64,000 nucleotides of DNA from Gonapodya prolifera JEL478 (taxonomy: Eukaryota > Monoblepharomycota > Monoblepharidomycetes > Monoblepharidales > Gonapodyaceae), in NCBI GenBank assembly GCA_001574975.1, contig KQ965765.1, positions 125,899 through 189,898 on the forward strand, read 5' to 3'. The notes beneath the pieces are model-generated. The model had not been told where the DNA came from. It did no database searches and saw only the letters and a program-made list of their open reading frames with translations. The stretch's first letter is position 1. Each line of letters begins with the position of its first letter. A program made the position numbers and the translations under genes. Of this stretch, positions 1 through 23,439 are shown piece by piece.

Positions 1-737
1 CTGGAATGACACTGGTTGGTGAGGAAGGGACGCTGGAAATTGTGTGGCAGAGACGAAAACATCTTCGAGTGGATCAGTCGACGATAAAGCGGAAGGTGAA
101 ATGGTGTAGCTTGGTTGTGTGCTTGATTTTCGAGCGACGGGAAGAGGCGGGTTCCGGGGCAGTTGCTCAACGGCTCCATCGGACGCATCCACTGCTCCGT
201 CGTGGGCGCCGTCCGCTACGTAAAGATCGATGTCGCCCTTCATAGCCGCCATTTCCATGGATTCACCATCTCCACCCATTCCGAGCCGCAGCTGGTCAAA
301 GGTGTCTTGATCGAGGACGACTTCCGAAGGACTTCCATTGCTCAAGAGTTCAGGGTGGTGCTGTTGGTTGTGCGACACGAGCTCATGAAAGTCGAAGGAT
401 GTCCCGCAGCAGTTGAACGACCGTATGTATGAGGATTCGTCAAAACTGGTGTTGGAGTTGCCGGTGTGAGCGAGCGCAGCGGGACCAGCACGCATCATGT
501 TCACTGAGCTCGAGGAGTTGGAAAAGGCGTACATGGCGTTGAGAGAAAGGGGTGATATTGAAGATGATGCAAGCAGATTTGAAGTCGACGAATCCATGTT
601 GAAACCAATGGGCGATTGCCCTTCAATCTGACCCTCACTGAATAAAAATCACAAAATCTTTCAGTACCTTTCCTTCAAGACCATTAAGAACAATCATACC
701 TGGAAACCTCCATCACACTCTCTGTCCGATCCTCCAT
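1..737 (-). CDS. Sfp1-like C2H2 transcription factor, 5' part
   Basis: The gene runs off the left edge, so only the N-terminal half is visible. Exon 1 is 737-700 (ATG at 737). An intron with donor GTATG ends in CAG at 638, and exon 2 runs from 637 past base 1. The join keeps frame and gives MEDRTESVMEVSSEG. Around residues 60-80 of exon 2 lies CCGTSFDFHELVSHNQQHH, a Cys-Cys, His-His zinc finger of the type found at the start of the Sfp1-like fungal zinc-finger region. Family knowledge: such proteins are nuclear regulators of ribosome and growth genes. The rest is Ser- and Asn-rich linker. The paired C-terminal fingers expected for the family would lie outside the window, so the exact orthology is inferred. 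An internal ATG at 597 is a less likely start because the spliced upstream exon fits. Confidence 0.75.
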
Positions 738-1555
738 AATCAATTGAATACTGTGATAAAGTTTAAAGGAGAGCTTGAGAAGGGCAAGCATCAGTCATAA
801 ATGCGGGGTGTGGGGGCATTGTCAAACGATGTAATGCGCGACGATTAAGGAGCCAAGCTTGATCTTATCCGCGCGGAAGTGAACTGTCCCCCACATCCCC
901 AATTCCTTACAATCCAGCAACGATCGTGGACTCGAGCAGTCATACTCTATCCCCAAAGATATATTATTTGGTCCAATGGGCCTTTCGTGGGGTGTTTCAA
1001 CCGTCCCAGCAACCCACTCGAATTCGCTGAGACAGGGCATTCACCCGCCCAATGCCGCCGTCCTGATCGACATGAAGAAACACCACTACATCCATGCTTC
1101 CAACCGATTGCCGCTTTCTTCTACTGAAGCCTGCTTCCGGATGACAGCTACTGAAGTTCACATGCCGAGGATGGAGTCCTCACCTGGACCAGTTCTGTCT
1201 CCCTGATTCGACTCGGTTCGAAATGTATTCCGGTAATAGAGCAGCAGCAAGAGTGTGATTCGCAGTCTCGGATAGTGGTTGAGGATAAGCAGTCAATTTG
1301 TCGGTGCCACGAATCTTGTGAGGGTTTGGGTCTATGACCACAATAAACAACGACCCCAAACACCGCATAGTACGAATTGAAGAAAGCTTTTTGTACGAAA
1401 AAGAAAAGCTTCGGAATGTACCAACTGATTCTTGTCAGCTCTTCGGGTGGTGGCACCGCGTTTGCGAAGGGACCGGCATTCGCAGACACGTTTGTGGCCG
1501 TCGCCAGGTGCCAGGTAGCGACTCTCCTACCCTTCCTTTAATTTCTTCGTTCTTC
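738..1555. other. intergenic, no gene seen
   Basis: This 0.8 kb lies between the start of the Sfp1-like gene and the stop of the SGNH hydrolase. Short open frames occur on both strands, but none has a recognisable motif or splice structure. It probably holds the promoter and 5' leader of the Sfp1-like gene and the 3' end of the hydrolase. Confidence 0.5.
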
Positions 1556-2584
1556 TCATTTCCTACTGCGGAATTCGCTTACAATCGTGTTTCCTACAAG
1601 TTCCCCTAATGCGTCGTACCCCACTCGCCTGGGATGAACACCGTCCGCCTGCCACAGCTCTTTCCTCTTGGCGTCTGGGAGTGATGTGAGAGGGTACTTC
1701 CGGTCAAGGTCCAGAAGCTTAAGGCGAGGGTGGAAGCCGTTGCAATATCCGCGAATAAGTTTGTTGAGCTTCTCCCGAAGAGGAATGAGATCGGCATACT
1801 CCTCATTGCCGGGATTCTAAAAACGAAGTAAAATAGGTTTGTCAGTGTCAGGCTACCACTGTTGTGGGGGAATCTGCAAACATCACAGCTCACAGCAATC
1901 TCCGGCAAAGTGCACCCAAACACCCGCGTTTCCTCTCCGTGCAACAGCGCTGACTCCCACAGTCCCTTCAACTCCTGGAAGACATCCTCGGGTTTCTCCT
2001 GCCACTCCACGAGGTCGTTCAACCCGCCAAGAACGATCACATGCGAGTACTCCTTCTTTTCCTTCTCTGCTTTCGAGAGCGAAGCGCTGAGTCGAGTCCG
2101 AAACTTGCCGTCGGAGGGGTGGACGCAGTCTCCAGAAACGGCGTTGATGTCTTGCGAGTGAATCCGATTCCATGTCGATACGTTACAATTCAGTCTGCAT
2201 CCGACGTACACAGGGGCAACGAGATTGCCTCACCGACTCTCACATTCCACCCGAGCTCCTTGTTCAAGACGTCCCTCATTTTCATTGCGTACGGGTGCGG
2301 ACTGTGCCGATTGCAAGTCCATCACAACGGGAGCCAAGTTTGAGTCCGACCAGAGGACATTCCGCCGATCGCAGACACGATTCAGCCATATAATCAAACC
2401 CGCTGAACGTGTCAAAGAGTACTCACTTTGTCATAACCCACTGGCCCTTGCCGTCCTCCCCCTCGATCTCAAACACCGAGTCCTCGCACAGACCTTCCGT
2501 CCACGAATCCCCGAGGCACAGAATGCGCGCATCGTACTGGAGTGATTCGAGTGTCTTCTCGTCGACGACGTCGGAGTTGGACAT
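1556..2584 (-). CDS. SGNH/GDSL-family hydrolase
   Basis: Four exons (2584-2427, 2301-2234, 2150-1894, 1816-1556) join to 744 nt, a closed frame of 247 residues. Block I is ILCLGDSWTEGL near residue 20, with the nucleophile Ser in GDSx. Then come HPYAMKMRDVL and an invariant-Asn-type block VDINAVSGDCV. ILGGLND follows, with Gly and Asn of the oxyanion hole, and DGVHPRRVGYDALG near the C terminus supplies the catalytic Asp and His. The length fits small single-domain SGNH esterases or lipases. No signal peptide is evident, so an intracellular esterase is likely; the substrate cannot be told. The start at 2584 is the first Met of the conserved exon. The gene is divergent from the LtrA-type gene, 1.2 kb away. 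Confidence 0.85.
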
Positions 2585-3800
2585 GTGGTGGTAGGCGTGT
2601 CGGAAGCTGGGTGAATTACGGCTTTAGTTGGTGGGAGCGGAATCAATGTCTGCCGATTTCCAGAATTATAATTGCAACTCAGGTCTCCCCCCTCTCGTGC
2701 TCTTAATTGCACACATGTTCCTTGCTGTTCAGAAATATTTCGTATTGTTACTATGGAGACGTGTACTGAATTGATACAGGGAAGAGTCGATCACAAATGT
2801 AGTTTCAATTGTTACAGGAGCACTCCAAAAACTCGCGACTTTCAAACAATCATTATGGGTACGCTGTATCTCCTGAGTGCAGTCTTCTGCATATTTGAGT
2901 ATGATTGGAACCCGACAGTATGTAAGGCTCTTCATGGAACATAAACCCGGGATGTCGCATTTGATTTCAGTTGACGTATGTAACGAACGTCCAGTTCGGT
3001 TTTTGGTTACGGATTCCCCTCGCGGACACCCAGAATCGAGCCACGAACTTTCATTGGTTTCAGTTTGAATTAAAAAGGGAGAAACGTCGCCATCGAGTGG
3101 TGTATAGTCCTCATCGAGTCACAACGCGAACGAGGAAGGCAAACCCTCCCCGCCCGCACTGCTCGGCAGATTTGCACTCAAAGAATTTCGCGTCCCGGGA
3201 CTCTTCCAACCGCAGGGAAACCCCCAGAGAGCCTGGAGCGTCCCATCAAAGTGCGGGATGTTTCTGGTGAGCCGTAGCACCTCTCTGTGCTTGTTCACTA
3301 GAACTGTTGGCGAGGCGGATGCGAAGACCTTCACCCCCAGCTCGAAAGAAGGCGGGCACAGGACCTTAAGCCTTCGCGGGGGCGCGTGGCGCGGCGCCCG
3401 CGAAGGCGGCACAGGTTCACGACAGAGTCGATCATCACCGTGAGCCCACCTCCCGTTTGTTTTGCGGGAATTGCCGAGTACCGATCGACAGCGAAGGTTG
3501 GAGAAAAGTTGGGCCGCAAAAGAAAAAGGCCACCCTGCCACGCAGAGCCACAATTCGAAAAGGACCTCTCTCGCAGACTTTCGGCAGCCAGAATTTGAAC
3601 TACAAAGCCTTAAGAGTCACTGGCTCCTATGTATTCTATGTTTCTCAAGTAATCCAAATTGTTCAACTACTCCAGCGCAGGGCAACCGTATGACATTTCT
3701 TCTTGACAATGACCCAGAAAATGGAGAGTTATTTCGATTTTAGCTTTAGATCAGGTTTGGATGAGGGGTTGCAGGCAAGGCTTCACATCTCAGCGAATTC
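2585..3800. other. divergent intergenic region with a GC hairpin
   Basis: This 1.2 kb separates the SGNH hydrolase (-) and the LtrA-type gene (+), so it should carry both promoters. I see no supportable gene. It contains a strong palindrome at 3370-3407 (listed separately). Several short frames are open on both strands around 3120-3550, but they lack splice logic or known motifs. Confidence 0.45.
3370..3407. repeat. perfect 11-bp inverted repeat, GC hairpin
   Basis: The left arm gccttcgcggg (3370-3380) is exactly complementary to cccgcgaaggc (3397-3407), with a 16-nt GC-rich loop. It stands alone in a divergent intergenic region. It could be an operator-like site, an RNA hairpin in a leader, or the relic of a small insertion; the sequence does not decide. 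Confidence 0.8.
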
Positions 3801-6800
3801 ATGAACCCACTTGTGGACAAACCGCTCGATCGTTCGCGAGATGGCGACCCCCAATCTACGCGGACACTTTCTCCCATCGACTTTCTCTCCATGCCCCCGC
3901 CTCCCTCGATCCTTGTACGACCACGTGACTCGGCAGTTCCACCGTCGAGTACGGACGGATCATCAGACCAGCCGGGAGCGAATCAACTCGATCAGAGTCA
4001 CTCATCGAATGATGCGATCTTGAAGTCGAGTCCTAGTAACGTCGTAAAGACTCTGGACGGCTCTGTCGTGATCACCTCGACGCGACCGGTTTCGGTCTTA
4101 GGAGGTCCAACCTTTCTGACACCACCGACCCGCATTGGGTTCACCGAGGACTCTACCGGCATTGGGGATCAGCGCTCATTGGTTGATTCCCCTGGGAAGG
4201 TTTCTGATGTCCCAAACCCACGGCAAGATCTCCTCCTTGGCATTCTTTCCGACCAGAATGCCACCCCTAACAGCGACTCTGCGGGCATGGGCATTGGCGT
4301 CACCTTTCACCCGACAGTCTCCATGGTGTCTACTGCGCAAACTCGACCTCGGTTCGGGAACGGAGCTGGTGTTCCGAACTTGGCTCTCCTTCGCCGCCAA
4401 GGCATCTTCGGCGTTGGATCAGTCCCACGAACACTCTCGATTGACTCAAGCATGACCACTCACTCTCATCGGTCTTACTTTTCTCTCAAAAAGGAGTTTG
4501 AGCGAATAGCGAAGAATTCCCCTCAACCGTTTTACCGAAAACGTCACATATTTCGGTTTCCCATGCTGCTCTTCGACTTTGGGGAAGAAGATCAGGAGCA
4601 TAGAGCAAGTTGGGAAGGTGGGATACCGTTGTACTCTACTGTCGCGCTTGCAGCTCTGGACCCCTTCACCCTGTGTTCGTCCAGAATTGTTTTACGACCT
4701 GCTCTACGTTGGCGCCATCATCCGCGTGGACGTCATATTCGGCTACGAGCCAACTCTCCACGGGATCGTTGTCGTCGCTGTCTACTTCCTCATATTTTGG
4801 TGGTCGTGGAATCTTGTCAACGGGTACTATTCCCGGTTCTCCGCAAACGACAGGATCCATGGACTGCTAAACTGGATCCACATGCTCGTGAGTACTCCGA
4901 ACGCGCATCAAATGAGATGAAGGATCATTCTGAGAAACGTTTCTTTTGATTCAAGGGTGTTATGGCAAGTCCGTTTCTTTCACCAGCACGAATTTGACGA
5001 CTGAGAGTAACAAATAAGCTTTTGACCGCACAACAGTGGGACTGACGTCGCAACTGCCATTCAACTATAAGCAACAGTTCAGCATCGCTTGCATTGTTTC
5101 CCGAGTAGGTGACGTTCCCATTCAAAGTCGTTCTAATCTGTGGCTGATCATATTCTTTAGATACCCATCTTGCTCATGTACCTCATGGTCCAAGGAGGAA
5201 TACCTCGCGCCCGAGTGTACTCCGTCTACGCCATCGCCGGGCTCACAATCTCCATCGCTCTCTTCACCGCCGCCGCATGCCTTCCTCGCACCAAAAACGG
5301 TTTCATTCCCGCCACACGTAGTTCGTCTGACAGTCCCGTCGGCTATGTCGGCACGCTCGGGAATGGCACCACCTCAGGACTACCCACAACTGCTGATCTC
5401 TCAGCCGTTCCCGCTGCCGACGTTTTGGCAATGGTGCTCTGGCTCCTCGCTGTTATGGCAGAAATGGTGGGAACGCTATTTGTGACCAAGAAGCGTAATC
5501 GGATCCGCATTCACGTCGGACACGTGGCGGAGCGGCATGGACTATTTGTGATTTTGCTTCTTGGGGAGAGCGTTGTGAACCTCATCACGGGTCCTCTCCC
5601 AGTGGTACGTCTTGTTCTCTGCTCGGTATTCGATGCTTTTTGAGCAACGATTGTGTTGAAGCTCCCAGAACACTGGTTCTACCACCTCTTCTCGTTTCTC
5701 ACCGCCTGGTGTCTCATGCTGCAATACTTCGACACCCAGCCCTTCGATGCGTCTACTCACATCATGTCCCGCTCTCGGTGGGGAGGTAGAGCGATCATCG
5801 CGTTACACTTTCTCCTGTCGTGTGGAATCCTGAGCTTAAGCGTAGGGAACAGGATGCTCTCCTATGCCGCGATGTGAGTGAAGCTCCATTATCTTTGCTT
5901 ACAGAGCAATTTAAAAAGTTTACCATGCCGTCATTTCAGATGCCCTCACATTCCGGACGCCAATGCTTGCGTTTCGAACTTTTGGACAGTCGACCAATTC
6001 CCCTATGTGGTTCTTCTATGCGCTGGGGCGTCGATTTCGTTCTTCATCTCCCAAGTCATTCGCGCGATACACCAAGGAATTCCAGACAATCGTCAAGGCC
6101 GCATCCTCGTCGGTTTGCGCGTCATACTCTCTCTCTGCATGCTCCTAGTGCCATGGTTTGCGGGAGACTGGGAGGCAACCTGGTCCGCCGCTATCATTGC
6201 AATCATGGCGACGTTACAGATCTTGTCTGACCATTTGTCAACGGAAGGAGCTGAAGATTGGGAAGCCGAGCTCGTCAAAGAACGAGAGGAGCGCGGAATG
6301 GAGCGTTTGGAACGAGATTTGGAAAGAGCGAGAATGAGGGCTGTGAGGCTGGGACTTGAGACGGGACTTGCAGATGCTTCCGGGCAGGAACAGGAGAGGG
6401 GAGTCTTCGGTCTCGACACACTCGACGACTACGATGGTTCAGACTCCGAGATAAGTCATGATTTGGAGACTGGGTTCTTCGAAGAGGACTCTCGAGAATC
6501 GCCAACACCAGCTGAGCACGGCGGCGACGGTTCCACAGAGGAGAATGGCAGTAGCGACCACCACAACAGTCCTCGTATGATCAACCACTCAGAAATGGCA
6601 GAGCGTAGAGCGATGAGCGGGTTTGACGCCGACGCCGACAAACGTGACCCAGACTTTCTCCGATCAACGGACGAGCTGCTTGTGAAAGGGTTCACCTTTG
6701 CACCTCCGAAAATCGTCGAACCAACGACTCAACAGTCAAGTATCCGACGAAGAAGCACGTCGTTTGCCCCTCATACAATGGACAGCCAAGAGCGAAGAAT

Positions 6801-6993
6801 GTCACGCCATACTTCGCATTCTCCATCGAGACTTCGATCACGTACACCCTCTAATACCACTGTTCGAAGTCGATCACATCGTCGTGAATACTCTCACAAC
6901 GGTGAAATGTACCATAGTGACTTGGATTCGGACGAGGCTAGCGCTCGGTCAATTCGATCTCAAGCGCATACCAGCTCGAGTGTTAGTTTATAG
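3801..6993 (+). CDS. LtrA-family (low temperature requirement A) membrane protein
   Basis: Seven exons (3801-4617, 4685-4887, 4956-4968, 5037-5104, 5161-5604, 5662-5873, 5940-6993) sum to 2811 nt and 936 residues with phase closed. A Ser/Pro-rich cytosolic N terminus (about 270 residues) precedes the family block WEELFYDLLYVGAIIR. Many hydrophobic segments follow (VVAVYFLIFWWSWNLV, IPILLMYLMVQ, LLLGESVVNLITGP). After the last membrane segment there is a charged, coiled-coil-like stretch (KEREERGMERLERDLER) and a long acidic then Arg/Ser-rich tail. LtrA proteins (PF06772) are polytopic membrane proteins of unclear biochemical role. Exon 3 is only 13 nt, and it is needed to keep the frame through MLGVMAMGLTSQLPF. 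The long tails are typical of fungal members and may be phosphorylated. Confidence 0.85.
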
Positions 6994-7285
6994 AAAGGAC
7001 CAAGTAAGGAACAGTACTGCATAGACGCACTCTATTACTGTACATATGCATATCGCTTAGAAAAACGAACGAACGCATGTCCCAAATGGTGTTTGCAATT
7101 TACAGTGGCTTCTTGTGTCGGGCTTTGCTCCAGCGTTATTGGGTATTTTTGACAGTTTCATAAATTTCTCAATGTTCACAGTCTCTCAATGAAAACACCC
7201 TTTATTTCTGAGGGTATGAAAATTTCAAAGCATCCCATGCGCGAAGTTCCCCAGCTCAAAACTTGATACAACCTAAACCCCTGAA

Positions 7286-10200
7286 TCAAATGTAGTATAT
7301 CATTTTGTTCCAACCTAACATGCACGGGGTATCAATGATGATTGTACAAGCTTGATTGTGGATCGCTCTACTGTACTCACCAGTTTGTAAGTTTGGACCG
7401 ACTGGTACAAGATTTTTGTTGAACTTGAATAACTCAGGAGGCACTAAAACAGCAGCGAACGGTGTTATGATCCCGAGCGACCCACTATGCGAGCAATGAT
7501 TCTTACGTTCTCCTTTGTTGACGTACATTCGAGCTCGATCTGGCACACATCAATCAAATGTGGGCGACTTTTCAACCGTCATCGCTCATTCGAAAACTTA
7601 CATGCCAAGAGATGAGCGTAGTACGTCGGAGGCACAGGCGAGACAGACCTCGTAGCTCTTGCATATGCATGGCAGAGGCTGTGAGTGAACTGCACTCCGA
7701 TAATGTTAGTTAAACATTGCGGTTGCCAGTATGTTCCGGAGCTCACCCCTTCCAGCACGGCTTGAGACGGGTTGTTTTCGTCGAGAAGCACATAATAATG
7801 AGTTGGGCGAGTTGTTCCTTGAATTCCAGCGTGGGAGACGAGGTAGAAATCCCATTCGAAAGGGTGCGTCACAACTGGAGAATGCAAGATATCAATCAGG
7901 TACTCCTTGAGAGATGCATAGCCAGTATTACTCACCAGAGTCCACCACCGTTCCAGCGAGACCTTGGCAACATATTAATATGGTGAAACAACCTTGTTGA
8001 ATGTGTATACTCACGTTGCCGTTGCGGTCTCCGTCTCGCGAGTTTTCCACGAATACCTGTGGTCATGTTGGTAAGCCATAGACTGATGATGGCTGTTAAT
8101 ATAGTGTGTATGAACAAAACTGACCTTGGTGTGGTGTCGCTTGGTCTGTACGATGAACGTAATCTTGGGACTCTGTAGTATTACGTGTGTACCGCTAGCT
8201 GGGGCATAAACAGATGAAGAAGCACTCACGTAACCCTTCTCGAGCTTCATACATGCAGGCTTAATCTGAAGAACTTCATGCTCGAACACCGGCTCAAATT
8301 GGCCCTCTGAGACACCATCTCAATAGAAGATGAGCCGCTCTGGCTTGATGCAATTGAATGCAAAGAACGCGATGAGAGACTCGCGAACAATTTCCTCGAC
8401 ATTGACAATGATCTCATTCTTCGGGGCTTGAAGCTTGATCGTAGGGTAGTATCTGTGTGTATGCCGATGAGGAAAGATAGATGGACATACGCTAGACAGA
8501 TGTCACTTTGCTCATCTCCCGATTCAGCGTGGCGACCACTGCGGCGAAGGAGGGAATGGACTCTGACTGGGCAGTGTAGTGACTGACCACCATAGTAGGT
8601 GCGTTTGCGACGAAGGGTGCTGGTGGATCCTTGAGCTGTAGAGCGATGCAAAATGAGTTGATCAAGACAAATGATTGATTCATTGAAGCGCCAAATATTT
8701 CTCACAGTCTTAATATGCCACCAAGCTTCGTGTTGACTTTCAAAGCCACATCGTTGAGGTACTACGAGAGCTAGAGATGCATAAATCAGATGAACAAATA
8801 TTGTGAGGAGAACTGCGGTTACCTGAAGTTTGACTTGTCTCTCACCTTGTTTCCCGATTGACGAATGTTTTTAAGCTGGAGCACTTGACTGTTTTCGATT
8901 CTCTGTGAATTGTGTAATTGGTGAACGATCTAATGCAACTAAACTTCACCTTGGGACACCGAGATGCACGTCCATGAGGTCTTTCAAGTCTGTGTAATAC
9001 TCGCCCCGACTAGGAACAACGAAAAAATGATGACCGGGTCTGCACCAAACTTGTTTTGGCACTTCAAACGCTGTCAAAACTTAGCACTTCGGGTAAAGTA
9101 TTGGACTTTTGCTTGTAAGTTAACTCACGTTGCGACGGATGTTCCCTATGACCGTCTCAATGTTCCTGCACTCATTCCGGCAGTACTCCAATGCCATGTC
9201 CTCCACTCGAGTGAAGCCGATACCAGTGTCTCCAAAGTTCTGGCGCATTGCTCCATCGAACTGAAAAAGGAGAGTGTCAAATATGCCGGGTTGTCTGGTG
9301 AGATTTTACTCACCTCCCACAGCTGCTCGCCGCTCAGCTCGCGCGCTTGGAACATGAGAACGTATCCATACGAAGTCATCTGCACAGGAGTGTAAAACTA
9401 TTCGAAGAATGAATCATGATTAGTACCAACCTGCTAACAACTGGAAAAATGGAGTAAATAAACCTTGATGGGGCGTCCACTGCCCAGCAAGTTCCATACG
9501 CAGTCTCGAGGTTGAGTACCTAAGAAGTCGCCGATGGCTGTTGAGAATTATTATCTAAAGCGTTGAAGGAACTTCTAAAACATAGCGCTTGCGATCCGTA
9601 GAGAAGATCAGGTGCAGGAAGCACCCGTCCTGGAACCCTTACCATGTTTTCATCCACATGCATGTTGGGATCTCAAAGTTCAGGGTTCCGTGCGTATTTC
9701 AGGTTTGCAAACTACAAAGACGACGAGATGGAAATGACAATCACTTGATGGCGCAGTACCGCCTAAATACGTGCCACTCACGCATGTACGAACAGCTTCC
9801 TTGCGCATTTGAGCCTTCTGCGCGGTCGCCCGAGTCATTTCTACATTGGGAAACGTCAACAATCGAAACAGAGCTCAGAATTATCCCAGAATGTACTCAC
9901 TCGTCCTTTCGTTGTTGTTCATCAGTCCCGTGAAGCGAGTCCCAGCTACGATCTTGCATATTTCCATGGGAAAGAAAACGGCTCCCAAAGCACCGGTCAA
10001 TATGAGCAATTGGAGTTTTGGGTATCTAAGTGAGAGGGTCGAGAAAGGTCTTCTGTCAGAATTAAAATGCGTTCTTATGTTGCGAAGTATAACTCACTTG
10101 ATGGTACAGTTGTACTCGTTCTTGAAGAAGTTGACTACGTTGACCTTCCGACCATCTCTCAGCTCAAAGCTGTCGGCATATTCCGTTAATTCTATAAAAC

Positions 10201-11400
10201 TATAACGAAATATTGATCCCTCGACGCTTACCTGTACTCAAAAGCGTTCATATCAGAGACACCTCGAATAGCCTTCCGTATCACGATGTCTTGAGATTTG
10301 CGGTGCTCGAGCTCCACCCTCATGTTCCTGATCCGGGACTCAAGTCTCGCTTGGTCAATAGTTCCCAGTTTCTGTTCCTTCTAGTTGCTGTTTCCGGCAA
10401 CGCCTAGAAGTACCTCTTCAACGAACTTGAGAACTGTCATGTCTCCGCAGAATACTTTTGAATTGAAAGCGAAAGATAAGGCTCAAAGTCCAGACGACAT
10501 GAAAAATCAAGTGCTCACGTTGCACTGAGGTCCACGTTCACCATCACTTTGCCTTTACCAGGTTGCCCACCATCCGTTGGCCGAACACTCTGGTAGAATC
10601 CTCAAATGTCAACACCGCCACCGATGGCGATGTTCTGATCCGGAAAGTAGAGCAATCTTCTGAAAAACGGTATTAAATCATCACTGATCTACCACGGGAT
10701 AAACATTTGGGAACTTACGGTGCCCTCCCTTTCGCGGCGCTCAGATACTCTTGTATCTTGCCAAGCTGCAGGTTGTCTTTTGCCTTTTTGACGACTGTTT
10801 GGAGTGTTGTGAATCAAAGGATGACGCAAGCAGTAAAACAACGCCTGCATGGTCGTACCAATCGTTTAGACCCCGACGTTTTCTGGATCATCGTTCAGAT
10901 TCACAGCATCCTCATAAAATGGAGACATAAACTCTTGGACGCTGTAGAGGTTATTGCGACCATCATATGGTGGTAGCTGACTCTCCAAGTATGCCTTTTG
11001 CTGTTGAGTGAAGTGCTCAACAACAGCCCTGGCAATTTTTATAGGCATTAGTGTTCTGTGCACCACCAAAGCAAAGGACTTACTTGTTCTTCTTGCTTTG
11101 GGTGACTTCTTTGTTCTTTTTGTCCAAATGGTGACATCAAACTTCATTCCAAAACGAGACCAATGCATTAGACAGTCAGTTAAAAAGAGATTAGAAGTTA
11201 TTTCAGAGCCTCACGTGGAAGACAAGAGCGGTGGGCACTTCCTTGAGCTTTGTGTTGTGAGAAAAGGGTCACCCAACCCATACGAAAGTAAACTCAAAGG
11301 GGGCTCCTGTGAGCACATACCAGACAGTAGCTCGCAACCAAAGGGACTGGTCTTCCTTCCCTTGCTGGGTCTGGTCTTGATGGGAAAGTGGTGGGAGTAG
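7286..11400 (-). pseudogene. decayed Argonaute gene (N, PAZ, MID, PIWI remains)
   Basis: Reading the minus strand gives an ordered set of Argonaute segments in many short exons. The N domain has GREGRPV-like residues, FDVTIW, LPPYDGRNNLYSVQEF and VVKKAKDNLQLGKI. PAZ has DGRKVNVVNFFKNEYNC and FPMEICKIVAGTRF. MID has VPGRVLPAPDLLYG and LNDVALKVNTKLGG. PIWI has [49 protein letters not shown] and [18 protein letters not shown], ending in NKMIYYI at 7288. It is broken: stops interrupt strongly conserved blocks (after GGGVDI, after GVAGNSN, after YARNPEL, and at FY*DGVSEG). The catalytic GADVTHP segment is missing between TMVV and IPSFAAVV. Some exon joins do not close in phase. The 5' end abuts a Harbinger element. 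A functional protein is very unlikely. Confidence 0.85.
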
Positions 11401-11589
11401 AGTAGCTGAACTGCACTGACATCAACTCTGCAAGCGCCTCCACATGCTGAGGCATGGCGTAGCAAATATTCTCCATCAAAACAGCTATAACGTCTCCATA
11501 TCACCACCTGTAAATATGTGTTTGAGGAAAGATTTAGTGATGTGGTGACTTCAACCTTTACAAAGGGCGGGCAATTGCAGTGGTGCCTG

Positions 11590-12705
11590 TTGTCCACGAT
11601 TCTGCATTGCGGGGTGAGGACTATATTGGGAGATTTGCAATGGTGATAGTGCATGGGCTAGGAGGTTGTTGCGTATGGAGGTCCATACTTTTAGGGGTTT
11701 AGCCCGCACCCTCTGCTACCCAACAGGACCACTTTGGGACATGAAACATATCTTATTGGAGCAGCAGTTGTTTATTTTCCTGTGCTGGGTTGGGAGGAAT
11801 GAAACAACTGCAGATCTCATTGATCGATTCCAGCACAGTGGTTGAACCATTTCGACATATTTACATAGAGTCCTATTGGCAGTTGTTGGACTTACTGGAG
11901 AGTATCTGATGCAGCGGACTGGTGATGAGCCTTTGCACCCTTGCATTTGGCGCAACTGGAAATTCTCCCCATACTTTGACAGCTGCCTTGGGGCTTTGGA
12001 CAGCAATTAAAGTGCACATTCCAGTGGCTGCACAGGCTCCATTTTGGGATAGGAAGGGGCACTTGAGCCAGAATGTTCTGGTTGCAGTCAACTTCAATGG
12101 ATTATTCAGATTTGTATTACCCGGATGGGAAGGTTCCGCTCATGATGGAGTTGTATTTTGTGACACAATCATGAAGGGACTTGCAATCCTGGATGGGAGG
12201 TTCTATCTCACTGATGCTGGCTATGGTGGAGACCCCTGCCTTCTCATCCCATACAAGACAGTTTGATATCACCTTTGGGAATGAGAATTGGCTAATCAAA
12301 GGTGAGTGCATTTGTTGAATTTTTGATTACATTTGCCCATATCTTCTAACTGTTCCACACAGACCATCAAATCTCAAGGAACTCTACAATCTTCAACATT
12401 CATCCCTTCAAAACATTGTCAAACGCACGATTGGCATCCTGAAGAATCAATTTTTGATTCTCCATACTGTCGCCCTTGTTGATTTTCCAACTCAAGTCCA
12501 ACTTGTGGTTGCCCTAACTGGGCTACACAACTTCATTAGGATGGAGGGAGATGATATAGATGATTGGCTTGCAAAAAGGTGGGATGAAGGGGCTCAGAGG
12601 GCACCTGTTGGAGTGGCATGGGTGGACTACATCCCCCCAGTACCAGGTGTGGCAGAGGCCTTGAATGACCTCCGTGAATGTATTGTGATGGATATGTGGG
12701 CGTAG
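11590..12705 (+). pseudogene. PIF/Harbinger transposase (DDE), broken
   Basis: Family blocks appear in order: an N-terminal RMEVHTFRGLARTLC, QLFIFLCWVGRNETTADL, RFQHSG*TIS, PYFDSCLGALD (first catalytic Asp), RKGHLSQNVL, PGWEGSAHDG (second Asp region), LTDAGYGGDPCLLIPYKT, then ELYNLQHSSLQNIVKRTIG and ALTGLHNFIRMEGDD. An intron at about 12302-12362 is plausible. Several lesions are visible: a stop inside the HSG(E)TIS block, a frame change just after GALD, and stops between PYKT and the intron. In the third catalytic block the Glu expected in NVIER-type sequences is Lys (IVKRT), a change explained by one G-to-A substitution. The enzyme is therefore dead on several counts. Confidence 0.85.
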
Positions 12706-12839
12706 TACCGGAATGTGGTACAATTTTGGAGTGACAGAATGGAGTGTGTGCATTAGGCAAATTGTGCAAATGGAATACAGACAAGTATTTATTAGCTTTA
12801 ATAATGTCTATTAGTTCTAGGCATGAAATAAGTCACTTG

Positions 12840-14169
12840 CTAAATAAAACTACATTCAATGTCCAGGATCCCATGATACTGTCCCACAACTCCAAACCCA
12901 GGTATGTGAAGAGCAGTTGGGTCATAGTTACCCCACTGGCCCACACCCATCTGCCCCTGCATCATATATCTAACCCCATTTACTGTCATTCCCAGTGCTC
13001 CATGGGCTAGCTTCTGCTCCGCAATATTCTGCTCCAACCACTTCCTCCGCAAGTCTTGGGAGTGCAATGCAACAAAAGTCATTGTGTTTGCCAACTCCCT
13101 GAAGACTTCTATTGCTTCCAATAGCACCTCATCATCCAATTCATCTGCCTGAGCAATGTCCAATGCATCCTGCAGCCTGGTCTCCATCCTCTTGTCCACC
13201 AACATCGCTCCTTCCTGGCAGTGTTTTGCAATGCTGCTGACCCGTATCTCCTCCACCAGTGCACCAGCCATGTCCTTAAGTCCACACAGCTCAGCAATTG
13301 CAGTCACGCCCCTGCTAGGGATTTAACTGCAACTGCTGCTGTGGGAGTAGCTGGAGACTGTCAAAAGAGGCAATTTGGCCCTCCCAACTCCTGTTTACAG
13401 TCACAGAAATTAATCATGTGTATCAAGAACAAAATTGCATGCCATCATTACTCACCTGCGGCTTCATCTGCTTCCTCTTCGTCCAATGTAATTTCCAACA
13501 TCCGCATCTCTGCACACTTCTGCTTCTGTCCTGCCTATGCACTTGTATTCTCCAGTGCCTTTGAAGCATCTTGAACAGCCTGGCTGATGGTGATGGTGTG
13601 TGCTCCCATTACAATGTGACCAGAAAAAATCTCATTGCAGGTGTCCCACAACAGGAATCCGCCTTGGCGGATCTTTGAGATCCTCTGTTGCTCATCTGTG
13701 ACCTTACCAGAAACAGTGCTGTGAGCCTGCCAATGAAATAGAAGGAAAATCAAAGTGAAATGTTTCAGCAGCAGAAAATGGAGCAAATGTCACCTTACCA
13801 TGATTTCTGCATCCCACACAACATCATCTGCTAGAAGCTGGCGTCATCCCATCCCCATCCACTGCATCTCTTCAGCTGTGAGCATGTCTTAAAGAGAGCT
13901 TGAATCTGGTAGTAGTGAGACTTGACCTTATTCATGTTGTAATGATCCCCTACAGCAGCCGCTGCCTTGAAAGCAATGGTTGCAAGGGTTTATCCTTATG
14001 GTTGGAGTCCACTGTTGCTCCTCTTTCCTTCCTGCACTTGAAATAGGAGGGCATTGACAAGGATAGAGTCCAGGGTGGCATTCCATGTTGCACTAGGTCC
14101 ACGAGTATTCGCTCTTGATGATGCTGAGCCATTTGCAATGGGGTTTGAGATCTCAAGAGTGTCTGCCAT
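12840..14169 (-). pseudogene. Myb/SANT-like partner protein of the Harbinger element
   Basis: The likely start is at 14169 (MADTLEISNP). SATWNATLDSILVNALLFQV then EGKRSNSGLQ follow, the first helix of the Myb/SANT-like DNA-binding domain common in Harbinger partners. NMNKVKSHYYQIQALFKTCS and GWGWDDASF match the end of that domain. A C-terminal conserved tail follows (GGFLLWDTCNEIFSGHIVMG, and DMAGALVEEIRVSSIAKHC) ending at 12840. Such partners are thought to guide the transposase to terminal repeats. A stop after DDASF and unclear exon joins suggest the gene is broken, although one or two extra introns could rescue parts. It lies convergent with the transposase. Confidence 0.7.
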
Positions 14170-14743
14170 TGTCAATGTGGTTTCAGAGCTTTTTGAAAAA
14201 GAGGCCTGGACCTCTTTTTCAAAAAGCTCCAACTCTGCAATTTTTTGAAGTCTTTTCTCTCTCAAAATGAACAGACTGAACGCACTTCTAACTTTACATC
14301 TGTTAAAAGACCTTTTTTAGATCCTTTTAGAGCCTTGTAGAACCCTTAAATGATTTTTAGTGCCAGACCCGCGTTTTATCCTCTAACTCTATTTCAGGCA
14401 AAAGATAGGGATTTAAAGAGTTAGATCGCCTCTTTTAGAGGCTGACCAAACACAACCGCAGCTACCACCACAAACCCCCGAACAGACAGATCAGGTAAAA
14501 CGGCCTTTTTGAGATAGAATAAATACAATCTAAAGTACCCTACTTAGGACATCAAACTGCTGCGTTGCAGTGGTGAAACTTTCCGAAAATCACCCTCAGT
14601 TTCAGATACAGCCAGCTCGCTAACAGCCCTAGATAGTTTGGACCGTCTCCAATTCGGTCTTAAGGTGTGTTCATATTGTTCTTGTATACAGCCGCTTCTT
14701 TTAAAATGGCTTTGGCACCCCGTCTCCTCTTGACGTCTTCAAC

Positions 14744-15249: not shown

Positions 15250-15960
15250 TCACAACATTATGTGTGAACTCTCTTGCCATACGTTCCGACCAGCTTTAAA
15301 GGACATTATTCAGAATTTATCTCGACTTGAACTCTATATCGCACATTGCAATACACTATCCTCCTCGACACGTACTTGTTGCATTACTTGGATCTCGGCT
15401 TTGTCTCTCGCAACTTCTGGAACAAATTTGGATGTCGGAGTCGTGATCACTCCACCCATGACCTCGTACACGTGTGAGTGTCAAAATCTTTTCTGAATCG
15501 GGAAGATCTGAAAGAGGAAAAACGGGTTACGTCAGGGGATTCGGCATGGAAGGACGGTCTAATGAACAACTCACTTCGAAAGAGTCGCTCCGATATGATT
15601 ACTCAACACCAATCAGCCTTGCGTCTTGCGGAGATCCGCCGTAGATGATACACTGGCGGATATCCTCATTCATGTGCAAACAGAAGTGGTATGCCTCCAC
15701 CTGTAAAGTTTGAATCACCCAAGAAACCATTCCATCATCCACAAAACAAGACAAATGTACTCCGAACCGCCAACCTGCTTTCCAAGATCCCCACTGTATA
15801 AATAAAAACCGCAAACGTGTTCGTGGATCTTTTTGATCGGAGAAAAGGTCTGAATGACGGTCGATCCTGCTTCCAGAAGGCTGGACTTTGGAGTTTTGGG
15901 GTCACCAGGAATGGCACTCCCAATAGACTGTTTGACAGTCGAGCGTTTTGAAGAACGGTG
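15250..15960 (-). pseudogene. decayed DUF1264 / oil-body-associated protein 1-like gene
   Basis: Exon-like segments on the minus strand match the DUF1264 (OBAP1) family: [40 protein letters not shown], an intron ending TTTACAG, then [20 protein letters not shown] and [13 protein letters not shown]. The next family block (Y-M/I-I-S-E-x-L-F-R) is present only after a one-base frame change (about 15598). HSHVYEVMGGVITTP is preceded by TGA where the family has Trp and by another frame shift. LVGTYGKRVHT near 15290 is the C-terminal YGK block. At least three lesions make this a pseudogene. In plants OBAP1 binds oil bodies; the fungal role is unknown. The start codon was not located. Confidence 0.75.
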
Positions 15961-16041
15961 ATCGAGACAATGATAGAAAGACAAACGAATCAATTTCGTC
16001 GAAGTTTTACACATTTTAAACCTCGATCGTGGAATCCCTCC

Positions 16042-16573
16042 TCAACGACGCACCGTCGGCGGTCCTCCACCATCTCTCGCACCCTCCAAGCTCAACGCAG
16101 CTTTGAGCGATTTCACAGCTCCGCCTCCGTTCACGCCCCGATCCACATCCTTCCCCAAGGGGGTGATCCCAACACCTGCTTCAGAGCTTTTACTGGATGT
16201 GTCGGCAGTGGCGTATCCAGTAGCGAAGCCTGCGGTCTAGGAAGTCGAACAATAAGGGAAATAGAATGAATGCCCACCGATCGAAAAGAAAGCTCCACTG
16301 GAATGACATCAGCCAAAGGCGCCCAGCTGAAAAACTCACCGCCAGTCCCAAAAAGATCCCAACCCAAGACACCCACGGCCTCTTATCCTTTTGTTCCGCC
16401 GGGGCAGTCTTGGTCGCGGAATCGCCTCCAGGCCGGCCCGTGGCGACCGTCTGGGGCTTCACGTGGGGTGACGTGGTGTACCGAAGGCGGCGGAAAGAGG
16501 GGAATGGGAGCGAGCGGGACTTGAGAGCGGTGCGCTTGGTAAGAAGAATGCGTGTTTGGGAATGTGCAAGCAT
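16042..16573 (-). CDS. small protein with mitochondrial-type N terminus
   Basis: Two exons (16573-16340 and 16236-16042) give 429 nt, 142 residues, with phase closed. The N terminus (MLAHSQTRILLTKRTALKSR) is rich in Arg, Lys and Ser and has no acidic residue, like a mitochondrial presequence. One hydrophobic helix follows (WVSWVGIFLGLATAGFATGY), then a soluble tail with GITPLGKDVDRGVNGGG. I do not recognise the family. It could be an inner-membrane anchored protein or the N-terminal module of a larger mitochondrial enzyme. A longer in-frame start at 16639 exists but extends past the basic presequence. It is divergent from the HSDL2-like gene with 273 nt between starts, so the two may share control sequences. 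Confidence 0.6.
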
Positions 16574-16846
16574 TTCGAGAAAGTGGACAAGAGGTTGGGT
16601 TCTTGGGTGGAACTGTGAAGGAGTCAGCTTTGAATTCACTTGCGACTAAATCTAGTCTTTCCACTCAACGCGAATTTTACTTTGGCAACTAGCTCTCTGA
16701 ATAACAGAGCGCAATGTCCTCTTTGGAACAAACGAAAAATCCGGCGGCACCTCATTCTGCCGTTCCCGGGATCCATTTCCCCCATCGGCAAAGCTCTTCT
16801 GTTCCCGCACTCATCCACCTCCAAACACATCCACACACCCACAGAA

Positions 16847-18493
16847 ATGTCCATGAAAGGCAAAGTCGTCTTCGTATCGTGAGTGTCGCTTCACGCTCTC
16901 TCCTTCGCTTCCCAAACCTGAGCGCCATCAATCCACACTCTCCCAGCGGCGGATCGCGCGGAATCGGGCTCGCGACCGCCATCCGCTTCTCCCGCGAAGG
17001 ATGCAACATCGTCATCACCGGTTCGTTCCCTGTTCCCTGTTGCCCTTCCCAACGCTTTCCCTCCAATCGGGATTTCGGAACCCTCACTCCCGCAGGCAAA
17101 ACCTCCACCACGCACCCCAAACTCCCCGGGACGATCCACTCGGCTGCTCAAGAATGTCTCGACAACGGAGCGTCGGGGGCTCTTGCGGTGCCTTGCGATA
17201 TTAGGGACGAGAAGCAGGTTGTGGAGGCGGTCGCCAAGGCTGTGGAGAGGTTTGGTGGGATTGATGTGTTGTTGAATAATGCGAGTGCGATCAGTGAGTC
17301 TCTTTCCTTGCGGACGAACTCGGGCCTTACAGAATGAATAAGTTTGATGAACATTTGCCGGCAGGTTTGACCCCGACGACCGAGACGGACTCCAAGATGT
17401 TCGACCTCATGAACCAGATCAACTTGAGGGGGACTTGGTGAGTACTCGTTTGTTCCGCTGTATGTACAGGGTCTTCCCCAATGCATGGATCTCACCACGT
17501 TTCGAAAACGCATGCAGGCTCGTCACCAAATACTGCATTCCGCATCTTATAGCGTCTGCCAAGCGAGGACGGAACCCGTGAGTGTATGTTATACCTTGGC
17601 GAACGATACAACAGGTGTCCGGATCCTTGAATTTCTCAAACTTCACCGTCAACCTGTCGCTCGACTCAACAAAAAAAAAAAGACACGTCGTCAACATGTG
17701 TCCGCCCATTACGCTCGAGCCCGAGACGATCGGCGGGAAGACTGCGTACATGATGGCCAAATACGGAAGTAAGTCGACTTGCAGTTTTCGACCATTGTTC
17801 TGCGGGCCGTCTTCGTCGAACTTAACAAGATTTCCCGGGCGTCTAGTGTCGCTCCAGGTCCTCGGCCACTCGGTTGAGCTGAAGGAGCACGGTGTGGGCG
17901 TGAATGGAATCTGGGTGCGTATTTCAAGCATTAGACTATCACGCATGCACAATTGGCTGACATCACTTGTCCACGGCACTTTGCAGCCAATGTACCCCAT
18001 TTGGACCGCGGCGCTCAAGAACAGACTGGGCATGGAAGCGTCGTGGGCTATGAAGCCGGATATCCGTAAGTTCTGAACGAAGTTACGCTTGAGCCATATT
18101 ATGGTCTGATCAGCAGTATATGTGGTCGGAAACTTGCAACGGCGACAACTTCAGACGCAGATGCCATCTACACCATTGTCAACCAGCCGTCGACGGAATA
18201 CACTGTGAGCCGACATTCAGCCCTCCCACCTCCTTCGATCTCATGAATTCACATTCTGTCTCGACATTCACCCTCATTAATTACAGGGCAACCTCACGAT
18301 CGACACCGCCATCCTGGCCTCACAAGGCATCACTGACCTGACGCCGTACCAGATCGACCCTACGCGGTCAGCCCCCTCGCTTGAAGAGGCGCGCTTCGGA
18401 GCGAGTAAAGCACATACGTTCGCATTGCCGGGGAAGAAGGTGCTGCTGAGGCCGAGTACGGATTTGTTGGCGAGGAGTAGGAGTTCGTTGTAG
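16847..18493 (+). CDS. HSDL2-like short-chain dehydrogenase
   Basis: Ten short exons (16847-16878, 16947-17020, 17096-17293, 17365-17437, 17518-17577, 17683-17768, 17847-17914, 17987-18065, 18155-18204, 18287-18493) sum to 927 nt, 308 residues, phase closed. The protein reads like the hydroxysteroid dehydrogenase-like 2 family. It has the cofactor loop SGGSRGIGLATA, the signature KTSTTHPKLPGTIHSAAQE, DVLLNNASAI, PHVVNMCPPITL and AYMMAKYGMS (Tyr-x3-Lys catalytic pair), then ADAIYTIVNQPS near the end. HSDL2-type enzymes are NADP-dependent and usually peroxisomal or mitochondrial, linked to fatty acid metabolism. This protein lacks the C-terminal SCP2 domain of animal HSDL2. One acceptor site follows a run of 11 or more A, which is unusual. 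Confidence 0.88.
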
Positions 18494-19032
18494 GGGTGTG
18501 GGTGTGCTTAGAAGTTTGTTTTGGGTCCTGAGCAGTCAAGTATTTGAAATGGCAAGATTGATGCATTTTAAATCTCAAACGGTGGAGTCCTTTGTACTCG
18601 ATCTCGAGGACGTCGGAGCGATGAGTGCCATTGTTTTTGGTTCGATGTAAGGTTGGGTGTGGGACCTCAACCGCGACGGATGAAGCCGACATAGAATGTG
18701 AGATACTGTCCAGTGAAGCTCCACCATTAGTATTGTAGCCCTACTATACTGCTAGGTTTCATTAGCATTACAATGACCGCGGAAAGGGCGGGACCGGACC
18801 TCGTTCCGCCACGCGCCACACCACCTCTGAAGGATCTCCGTAAACGACCGAGAGGACTCCGCACGCTCAACACCCCGCGCTCTCGCTGCGCAATCGTCCC
18901 TTGTGCCCGTCGTCCCCTCTTTTCCGTCTTCCGCCAACCCGGAGTGCGATCGCAGCAGCAGCGAGGACAGCGGGATTACCACTCGACACCCTCGCACGGC
19001 CACGCCCTCACAGGTCAGCGGCAGGACGTGCA
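18494..19032. other. intergenic, no gene seen
   Basis: About 0.54 kb between the HSDL2-like stop and the start of the Pro/Ser-rich orphan. GC content rises sharply from about 18.8 kb into the next gene. Open frames here are compositional. Confidence 0.4.
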
Positions 19033-21622
19033 ATGTCGTGCTGTTTCGGCGAGGAGGAGGATCCGCGCGAGAAGCTGCGGAACGCGATCAAGGCGGGCGC
19101 GATTCGGGTCACGGTGTGTGGCGGTAGTTTCCCGGGGATGTCGTGATACCCTGCTAACGAGAGAATCTACCCCTACGTACCGCTTTGCGTCGCTTTGTTC
19201 GCGTGGTTCCGTGGTTCCGTGGTTCCGTGGTTCTTTGCGGGAGGATAGGTTCGGCAGGATACGTTCCAGGCGAGTCGAGTCGTCGGCCAGTGGAGTTGGA
19301 GAGCACCTGGGCTAACCTCTCCACCCCGATTATTTCACTGGCATGCTAGCATGTTTCTCATATGGACGCCGGAGACTCCAAACCCCACCCGTTAGGCGGT
19401 GTTGGGTCGCCCTTGAACTTGAAAGCTCTCGACGTAAGTCGCTTTTGTGGGAGCTCTAGACAAGGTCGGCAGAAGAGAATAATTCAATTTTATTTGAAAC
19501 TAGACCGAAACGTACAACCACGTGCGGTCGCTTCAGGAATATGCTGCTGGTGTTTTACGAAATGGTGAGTCGACCCGTGGATGTGGGAGACATGGAAGGG
19601 ACCATTGCGCGGGACGGACACAACACCAACGCTCGCCAAAGGGTCCGATCTCTGTGCAATTTTAGCCGTGCTGAGTTTGCGCAACTACATTTGGTTGCGT
19701 TAGCTTGACCTTCAGGAGACGTGTCAGCTTGATACACAGGATGTGAATCTCAACTGCCTCCTCTTCCTTCAACCCCTCAAGACACCTACCCCTCCACACT
19801 CCCACCCGCCATCCCCTCTCAAGCCCACCTCTCACCTTCTTCGGGCGCCGGTGGGGCGGGTCGGCGCTCCCTCTCGCGTGACCGTGGCGGCGAGCACCAC
19901 TACACCTCATCCGGGTCCCTGACCGCTGCAAGCCCGTTGCGAGAAACGCGGTACGGCCGAGGGTCCAAGGACGGCAGCGGCAGCGGCGGGGACTCGAGCA
20001 GTCCGACCAGCACGGAGAACGGGACCGAGTCGAGCCTCGTCAACGGGAACGCGGGTGTATACGCCATGACGTCGATATCCAAGCAGAACGGCAGCTCCTA
20101 CCCACACCAACACCCAGGCAACGAACCCTCATGGGACGCCTCGACATCCACCGCCACGGGCACGACGACGCTCGCCCGGATGCGGCACTCGGTGTTTCCG
20201 ATGGAAGCTACGGGGGACGCCATGCTAAGCGTGCGGGCATTGGACGCGCTGGGTACACAATCAGTCACGCTCGGAAGCTTCCACGCCGCCAACGCCGCCG
20301 AACTCGCGCCAGAAGAGCGGCCCCTCTCCCCCGAGCAGCCCGACCCCGTAACAAGCCACGTCCTCCCCTCAACCACCACACCGGCGCGCCCCATCTCACC
20401 CTCGGCCGAATCCACCATCACGACCACCACCACCAACAACCCATACCCCCTGCGCTCATCCTCGGCTGCCGGGTCGACTTCGGCAGACCTGACCCGGTCG
20501 CCGAGCATTTTGTCGGGGCCGAGCACGTACAGCTCCGTTGCGGGGTCATACGCTTCGACCATGGGAGCGGGTGGGCAAGCGACAAGGCAGCAGCAGAGTG
20601 GGTCGGCGTTCCCCCCGCCGGCGAGGAGGGGAAGTCCAGGGCCGGGGAACGCGGATACGTTCCCTCGCCGTAGTGATCCGGCGGCGTCACGAGCTCCACC
20701 GAGCAGCACGCCCACCTCAGGCACCAACAACACCTACGGAACAGAATCCCTCGGCCGGCGGTTACCAAGCCTGACCTCTCTCTCGTCCACCACAACTTCC
20801 TCAACCATCAGCGCGGCTCCGATCAACCCCTACACCTCAGGAGCAGGAGCAGGAGGGGGCCAGCGCGCAGTGTACTCCAAACCCCCCGCCGAGTTCCTCG
20901 CCGACCAGCCTAAACGCATCGCTGCACCCGCAGTACCCGTCTCGCCTCAACTACCGCGCTCGCCGCAGATGATGCCTCCTCCCAACTCGCCCACATCGTC
21001 CGTGTCGTCGTATGGGTCGGGCTTTGCGGGTGGAAGGATGGAACCTCCCGGCCGGTCGCCCATGCTGAGACCCGCTACGGCGGCACCCTTACCCGTACGG
21101 CCTGCGCCTGGTCGACCGCGGCCGGGCGGACAGGGCGGAGGTCTGTGGTCGCAAGCCGCAAGCGGCGGGGCGGGCGTGGGTGACATGGACACGGCGTCGG
21201 TGTTGTCGGGGTCCGACGGACTTCCGGTGTCCGAAGAGCGCCCGCTCTCACCGACCGCCCCGCCGTCGATTTCGTCGCTCGCCTCGCTCGCCCGCCGACC
21301 TATCATGCCCACGGCCGCGTCTCCACCACCTCCCGTGCCCGTTCCCACATCACCGCGGGGCCCGCAACCTACGCAAGACTACTTCGTGCCCATGAAAGGG
21401 GTTGACGACGACAGCGGCGGCGGCGGCGGGGTGAAACGCAACGCGAGCATGAAAGCCGAAGTGGAGTCCCTCGCGCCCACGGTGCTGTTCAGGAACATGC
21501 CCGCCGTGACTGTGCATGCCGGGACGAACGGGACGGGGCGGAGCTTTCCGGCGGCGGCGGTCAAGGTGAATGTGAATGTGGCCCCGGGGCAGGCGGCGGC
21601 GTTTGTGCCGTGGGGGAATTGA
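19033..21622 (+). CDS. Pro/Ser-rich orphan protein, 702 residues
   Basis: My model has four exons (19033-19113, 19350-19433, 19504-19564, 19740-21622), 2109 nt, phase closed. It starts MSCCFGEEEDPREKLR, where the Cys pair near the N terminus could be lipidated. A short folded-looking part follows (LKALDTETYNHVRSLQEYAA), then about 600 residues of low complexity rich in Ser, Pro, Thr, Gly and Ala. That part includes two copies of an EERPLSP motif and several SPR or SPQ proline motifs, ending PGQAAAFVPWGN. I recognise no domain. The exon 1 join is the least sure part; an alternative start is the ATG at 19362. A disordered signalling or cytoskeletal adaptor is possible but is only inference. Confidence 0.6.
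19203..19234. repeat. tandem repeat, 8-bp unit x4
   Basis: The unit gtggttcc is repeated four times in a row, the last copy with one change, inside the first intron of the Pro/Ser-rich gene model. It is a simple slippage-type repeat. Confidence 0.85.
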
Positions 21623-23439
21623 GGTGTATTGTGTGTGAGGGTGGGAGGTTGGAGGACAGAGACCCGGCTGCGTTGTATTTAATCAACGCCTATGTGGACA
21701 CGTACGGTCGGTCAAGGGAATTGTTCTTCCACGGTGACATTTTTTATCGGAATGGTGATGCGTAAGGTAACGGCCGGTGGGGAGGAGGATGTGTGGATGT
21801 GCACAAGTATGAGCATGCAGATGTACTTTTGATATACATTCGTCTGTGTTATGGATTTTTTTTTTTTCCTCTTCTCGGCTCTCATCACAAGGCAGGGTAG
21901 CTGATTCGTTGGGGTTCGTGGCGAAATGCGTGGGGCAGTGAAGGGAAGTTCGAAATACATGTCTCTGGCACGCTCATCAACCTGCGCCACCCACCCGACT
22001 TGGTAGAGGTGGGATGCAGGCCGTTGATAAATCAATGGCACGAAATTCCACACCACTCACGCCACAACCACGCACCGCAATGTGAAAATCTCTACCCTCA
22101 TGCGCCACACACAGAAAAAGGCGCCCTTATTGGGCAAAGATGCTTCATATTCTGTGATAATCATCAAAGGAAGAACAGTTGGTGGTCGACCACAAGGAGC
22201 AGCTGATCAAGATACTATCTCTCGCGTAAAGCGTCCCCACTGCGTTAAGCCGTTGTATCGACCGATGGTTGAGCGGTCGGACAAAATATTCCTTTAACAT
22301 AGCGAACGTAGTGCCGTGACAGTTACCTCACTGCTTTTTCCAAGTACACGAACAAATAGGAAGCATAGTCTTGTCAAATGCGAGACAAATGAAACGGTAA
22401 ACTGATGGTGTGGGGTAACAGGGCGGTGGGAGCCGTGGGGTGTGGAGAGAAAGCAACTCGAAGTGATTGTGCATGACGGCAGCTCCTGAACGGTCGTAAC
22501 CTGAATGACGTCAACAAATTCATGCCAAAGTATTATAAGAAACACGAAGCTTTCTAATTGACAAACGTGGAGTGATGTCACTGTTGATGAAGTCTGGTAC
22601 AATCTGCGCCTCCACTTACATTTATCTGAACTAGCCTGTGTGATCGTAAAACCGACGTCTTGGCTTGTTGAGCAAACCTCAGCATATTTGCTTGAGCATT
22701 ATGTACAGCGCTGACAGTGAGAGATGTACGGTTGGTTGTTGCAAGGAGATTGCGTCATGTCCAGATTATCCTTTCGCATCATCTTTCACTTACAATTGTC
22801 AAACCTACAACAACTAGACTACAGTCAGTGAGTTTTGCGACCGCGCTCGTATGTGACAGGTATCCCAGCCGTCGTTTTGGAACATTGCAAAATATGTCAT
22901 TGAAACCAGTCAACCTAAACCGCGCAGAAAGCACATTTCATATCCTCTTCATAGAGGTGTATCCACAAACCGAGGTGATTTACACGTTCAACGTGGAGTG
23001 ACACCCCTGTAAGGACCGCTCTACTGCCATCACATGATCTTCGCGACTCAGCGGACTCAACTAGCATACGTTATTGCAATGCCGATGGCGTAGCTTGTTG
23101 GGCAAAATCTAACACGTGCGCATGTGAACTATGCACAAAGCGGGCCGTGGGATATTATGCTCAAAATGCACCATGTTGCTGAGTTGCGGGGAGACTTTGG
23201 AGAGCACAGTCGTACCATATCTGATGTGGATCGACGAATTTGAGCAAGATGACTTCAGACTCCAGACACTCCGACCTTCTCAGCCCATTTCTCCATATAG
23301 TCAAGCTATGGTATGGGTAATGGGACAAAAGAATTTATTTGCCACAAAGCAGGACTATCATACTCCTTCTGAAGGGAAGACTGCCTTGCACTCCTCTACG
23401 AGAACAAAGAGTAAATAAGAGTCCGAGGTAGGCAACAAT
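21623..23439. other. intergenic, no gene seen
   Basis: About 1.8 kb after the Pro/Ser-rich gene. It starts with a probable 3' UTR and has a short T run at about 21855. No frame above 114 codons has recognisable protein sequence. Stretches near 22450-22600 resemble parts of the dispersed repeat that follows, but too weakly to annotate. Confidence 0.4.

Follow-up and report, generated by a model that had tools for sequence, protein, structure and literature searches.

The window (the whole stretch of 64,000 nucleotides analysed here, positions 125899-189898 of its own contig, designated C35) carries near its start an LtrA-domain gene, the remains of an Argonaute gene and part of a transposon that is probably of Harbinger type, with one end of an inversion lying between the latter two (Table 1). 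Since the Argonaute remains keep their introns and a better-preserved homologue exists in the same genome, on contig C92, they can be classed as a duplicated (non-processed) pseudogene. It is in itself an ordinary pseudogene, but one with an unusually well-preserved history. The span initially proposed for it in a sequence-only reading, 7286-11400, is exact at the 3' end and falls 88 bp short at the 5' end. Further along the window, two cNMP-binding sequences (PF00027, PKA regulatory subunit-like) are found at 32889-33657 (minus strand) and 60140-61442 (plus strand), the former resembling a disrupted duplicate of the latter.

Table 1. Features of the first third of the window, with window coordinates; codons are given as read on the minus strand
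Feature	Position	Strand	Remarks
Inverted segment, part inside the window	1..11568	-	Corresponds to C92:110266-121753 in opposite orientation, 84-87% identity
LtrA-domain gene	3765..6993	+	Pfam LtrA, E 8.3e-12; inside the same inversion
Argonaute pseudogene	7286..11488	-	27 exon remnants, introns retained; spliced alignment, Pfam
End codon TGA	7288-7286	-	
In-frame TGA	8320..8322	-	Directly before the second catalytic Asp; CGA in C92
12-bp in-frame gap	8587..8588	-	First catalytic Asp block deleted
In-frame TAG	8762..8764	-	CAA in C92
In-frame TGA	9673..9675	-	CGA in C92
In-frame TAG	10381..10383	-	TGG in C92
In-frame TGA	10602..10604	-	GVDI-GFYQSVRP block; TGG AGA in C92, 3-bp gap beside
In-frame TAA	10866..10868	-	TAC in C92
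ATA replacing the start codon	11488	-	
Inversion breakpoint	11568..11569	.	Argonaute 5' flank joined to transposon interior; ~80 bp before the lost start codon
3' part of DDE_Tnp_4 (probably Harbinger-type) transposon	11569..14458	+	Cut at 11569
Collinear paired segment, uninverted	15262..21893	+	C92:144390-151052, 82% identity

The nature of the locus is established at several levels. Raw six-frame translation already gives two Piwi matches (E 2.5e-17 and 1.7e-16), so that the Argonaute remains cannot be ascribed to chance, and alignment to the C92 relative with a custom spliced aligner on the minus strand covers all 893 query residues across 26 introns. In the X-masked reading of the pseudogene, Pfam reports ArgoN, ArgoL1, PAZ (E 2e-12), ArgoL2 and Piwi (E 1.4e-73) in this order, as had been proposed from the letters alone, while ArgoMid is not reported by Pfam for this reading. 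That the gene decayed in place, another element of the original proposal, agrees with the retained introns and with the position of the remains in a segment collinear, in inverted orientation, with C92.

Disabling changes are spread over the whole gene. Frame-aware spliced alignment and comparison with C92 at the DNA level find six in-frame stops where several had been claimed, and all three stop codons are represented. Five exon gaps relative to C92 are not multiples of three (~11127, 1 bp; 10453, 2 bp; 9514, 1 bp; 9024, 1 bp; 8715, 1 bp), and the spliced aligner also returns five frameshifts, four of them in common with the DNA-level list, its fifth lying at ~8452 and the frameshift at 9514 being absorbed into an intron boundary. 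Gaps of 3 bp and 12 bp are in frame at the DNA level. Splicing signals are affected as well: the donor of exon 11 has been lost by a change of GT to CT (~9585) and a 72-bp gap at ~10662 removes the beginning of exon 6 together with its acceptor. With its stops, frameshifts, lost start and lost donor, the C35 copy does not yield one open frame after splicing. Hypermutation of the RIP type was not seen when C92 was compared with C35; the unpolarised counts from C92 to C35 are 98 (C>T plus G>A) versus 81 (T>C plus A>G) in exons and 95 versus 112 in introns.

The slicer residues of Argonautes form the set Asp-Glu-Asp-His, and this set is incomplete in the C35 copy. The 12-bp gap deletes four residues, FGCD of the C92 block MVFGCDVSH, which aligns with D597 of human AGO2, whereas the blocks of Glu (NEII), of the second Asp (stop-DGVSEGQF) and of His (YYAHLL) remain; the proposed absence of the GADVTHP block and persistence of the later Asp and His blocks are thus borne out. 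Among relatives of solved structure, human AGO2, a member of the eukaryotic AGO clade, is the best match to the C92 copy, with which it shares the order N, L1, PAZ, L2, Mid and Piwi (residues 36-859 of C92, 504.8 bits), and the C92 copy possesses the blocks at D597 and H807, which we take to belong to the catalytic tetrad. The C35 copy differs from AGO2 in having neither the D597 block nor an open frame.

The sister gene on C92 (C92:110343-114611) keeps its catalytic residues, and parts of the two copies are 83-84% identical. Their differences are distributed unevenly over codon positions 1, 2 and 3 (58/864, 50/865 and 168/863, respectively, with 395/1549 in introns), and the third-position excess implies that constraint acted on both copies through most of their divergence. 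Polarisation of the replacements relies on two other Argonautes of the genome, located on C58 and C5, which agree at 62 of the differing residues: the outgroup residue is kept by C92 at 32, by C35 at 3 and by neither at 27, so that 32 of 35 polarised sites favour C92 (sign-test p 4e-7). Addition of the C151 Argonaute as an outgroup gives the same direction (C92 22, C35 1, neither 10, of 33 sites). This asymmetry indicates that constraint was relaxed on the C35 copy and that the C92 copy evolved under it; a rough estimate, which assumes that the C35 branch took 80-95% of the changes at codon positions 1 and 2, has this branch evolving without constraint during 27-38% of its separate history. 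In exon 8 of the C92 copy itself, within PAZ, 2 bp are missing (C92:111744-111748, GAGA versus GAGAGA) and the frame is broken, whereas the C35 copy is in frame at this position. The gap may reflect a sequencing error or a very recent loss, or splicing may bridge it, although no such bridge was found.

The two Argonautes belong to a larger pairing of C35 with C92 that extends over more than 80 kb at ~82-87% identity, with the inversion in between. Besides the segments listed in Table 1, window positions 45939-54000 correspond to C92:178347-186309 in the same orientation (84%), and on the other side C92:99004-109000 matches C35:90353-100702 in pieces (70-86%). Whole-genome duplication was considered and is unsupported by the genes sampled. 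The RPB2 domain occurs at 3 loci; Cpn60/TCP1 occurs at 11, with those at C39:187k and on C184 looking paired; and proteasome genes occur at 14 (or 16 when neighbours on opposite strands of C35 and C58 are treated as separate loci), with C58/C35 and perhaps C25/C18 looking paired, the pairings in both families being judged by matching exon patterns and not by alignments. A DNA search with 7001 bases found no paired segment for C5. These small samples suggest a regional pairing that leaves part of the genome single; pairs of the C35/C92 type may be haplotypes, hybrid remnants or segmental duplicates.

Both ends of the inversion can be followed to within a few bases. On the near side, C92:110161-110263 corresponds to C35:101651-101755, and from C92:110266, ~77 bp before the start codon of the C92 Argonaute, the match jumps to window position 11568 and runs backwards. 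At the far end, C92:142910-143003 matches C35:105907-106000 in inverted orientation, and synteny resumes at C92:144390 (window 15262). The inversion is deduced from these two ends and one opposite-orientation pair of matches, and the inverted piece spans 32-33 kb of C92; on C35 its length is 32-36 kb, the range reflecting the inclusion or exclusion of 4 kb of transposon-derived DNA. In the matching place on C92 (C92:143003-144390), an ORF resembles a retrotransposon gag by eye.

On C35, the break runs through the transposon. Other copies of this element exist on C43, C83, C92, C138, C85 and C121 (83-92% identity), and its DDE_Tnp_4 nuclease (PF13359) is recognized on two ORFs, both above the cut-off (E 1.6e-9 and 4e-6). 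An ORF at 12840-13322 (minus strand), sought as the Myb-like second ORF, gives only a Dynactin match below the cut-off (E 0.0035). The missing 5' part, 255 bp long, is located at C35:101759-102013 in opposite orientation and is 89-92% identical to the stretch adjoining the window part in the copies on C83, C43 and C92 (177.8k). A repeat search of window 11500-14600, outside which the 5' part of the element sits, found no terminal repeats; by eye, the motif GTGTT(C/T)GGTCA can be picked out close to the 5' ends of three further copies and, in reverse, around window position 14450. A second DDE_Tnp_4 element occupies C35:102014-105906, at the other inversion end, and blastn detects no similarity between it and the window transposon. 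When the inversion is undone in silico, the transposon is rejoined with ~18 bases missing at the joint relative to the C83 copy, and the Argonaute rejoins the C92 5' flank with almost nothing lost. Because undoing the inversion restores both, the C92 gene order can be read as ancestral: judged by these junctions, the C92 arrangement is the older one and the C35 inversion is derived.

Our preferred explanation, to which we give a probability of about 0.6, is that the C35 Argonaute is a dead copy that decayed after the inversion cut its upstream region. The inversion would have broken inside the transposon and just upstream of the Argonaute start, removing the upstream regulatory region and lowering expression. 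With the C92 copy and other Argonautes present, nothing would then have held the C35 copy, which could gather stops, frameshifts and the deletion of the first catalytic Asp. The order of events that we infer is that the inversion may have preceded the first disabling mutation. The reverse order, in which drift had already killed the C35 copy as a redundant gene and the inversion subsequently broke beside it, is a serious alternative that we hold to be clearly less probable. Redundancy alone would be sufficient, given the copies on C92, C58 and C5, and a second pair of segments illustrates the point. The flanks of the C58 Argonaute (C58:220500-228000) match C118 (83501-88500) at 93% and 84%, and the 4110 bp of C58 that contain the intron-rich gene correspond to 78 bp on C118, a change that can be read in either direction; no inversion is seen there, and hence one-sided absence of an Argonaute can arise without an inversion of the C35 type. 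Two observations weigh against death before the inversion. The breakpoint falls within ~80 bp of the start codon, and no decay is seen in the LtrA-domain gene that shares the inversion. In both of its copies the body of the frame is open, differences show a third-position excess and gaps are in frame, single-base gaps being confined to within ~26 bases of the stop-to-stop frame ends, where the true exon limits may differ. The LtrA-domain gene is therefore constrained on both sides, and the decay is not common to this neighbour.

Taken in its strong form, the sequence-only reading would make the locus a sign that the fungus has lost RNAi, or its sole Argonaute. A profile search of the 47.56-Mb, 207-contig assembly, which covered the Argonaute, Dicer and RdRP genes whose search had been recommended, contradicts this. 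Piwi-domain matches occur at eight loci, the C35 pseudogene and seven others; RdRP domains occur at four; and RNase III domains occur on four contigs, one of which, C53, carries two such domains in a Dicer-like locus with a helicase-like SRGRAR stretch visible by eye. The Argonautes of C58 (878 modelled residues, 19 introns) and C5 (864 modelled residues, 17 introns) show intact catalytic blocks and neither stop nor frameshift, in models that leave out the first and last codons. Damage is nevertheless found at other loci and would fit a wider loss: C134 has the C-terminal part only, which aligns with residues 624-867 of the C58 model; the model of C151 contains stops and frameshifts, one TGA being confirmed by eye; and C100 carries a damaged gene related to that of C31 (69% DNA identity). 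C31 (372500-380000) itself holds a distant Piwi gene without the catalytic Asp, Asp and His, its blocks reading GLSISH, YRKGVSE and FYAERI in a weak alignment, and is possibly a non-slicing Argonaute; both C31 and C100 were modelled with a distant query only. Against the open C58 and C5 genes with their intact blocks, the four RdRP loci and the two-RNase III locus, genome-wide loss of RNAi is very improbable and was rejected, and, as far as these gene models tell, RNA interference is probably still present as a pathway.

Errors of the assembly provide another conceivable source of the observations, with base errors generating the stops and frameshifts or the inversion being a misjoin between repeats. 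One junction does lie in a multicopy transposon, and the lone 2-bp gap in the C92 copy resembles an indel error. However, the changes of residues, of splice sites and of the start codon fit a single pattern, biased 32:3 to one copy, and both junctions join unique sequence to the transposon interior at matching points, unlike a repeat misjoin; an artefact is accordingly most unlikely. Continued use of the C35 locus, through stop recoding, a truncated protein or non-coding RNA giving small RNAs against the sister, has a nearly negligible chance: the 83-84% identity to C92 in much of the sequence would be enough for cross-matching small RNAs in places, but the excess of change at conserved sites speaks for a protein under no constraint, and the occurrence of all three stop codons in frame here and of none in the C58 and C5 models makes recoding unlikely and led to rejection of an alternative genetic code.

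Published reports allow the locus to be placed among known cases. According to one of them, Cryptococcus deuterogattii R265 has lost both Argonautes, the RdRP and one Dicer, and other RNAi genes persist there as pseudogenes (PMC4778953); Argonaute loss is common to both fungi, but here it concerns one copy of one Argonaute and the other loci persist. Another describes Dicer and Argonaute in all chytrids investigated and the lack of RdRP in several Rhizophydiales (PMC9926174), from which the present genome differs by its four RdRP loci. A third counts four Argonaute-like genes for C. parasitica and three for M. lusitanicus (PMC7763443), which suggests that several Argonautes per fungus are usual. 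In Drosophila, genes altered at inversion breakpoints are reported from comparison between species (PMC3355041); a breakpoint at a gene is found in both situations, with the difference that here it separates two paired segments of one assembly. The results of our literature search, which extended to inversion breakpoints, named neither this organism nor this locus.

A broader but improbable possibility is that paired Argonaute loci are being reduced, by more than one route, to a single functional copy. In both examined pairs one side is without a readable gene, through decay on C35 and through clean absence on C118, while an LtrA-domain neighbour is intact on both sides. If true, it would point to selection acting against the coexistence of two diverged silencing systems in a single nucleus, as might follow hybridisation, or alternatively to a degenerating, non-recombining inverted haplotype. 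For this fungus, what seemed a loss of RNAi becomes the traceable death of one paired copy, with the breakpoints of its likely cause readable to a few bases. Should one-sided Argonaute loss prove to be the pattern in paired segments across the whole genome, it would be informative about the way in which early-branching fungi resolve diverged silencing systems that result from hybridisation or duplication.
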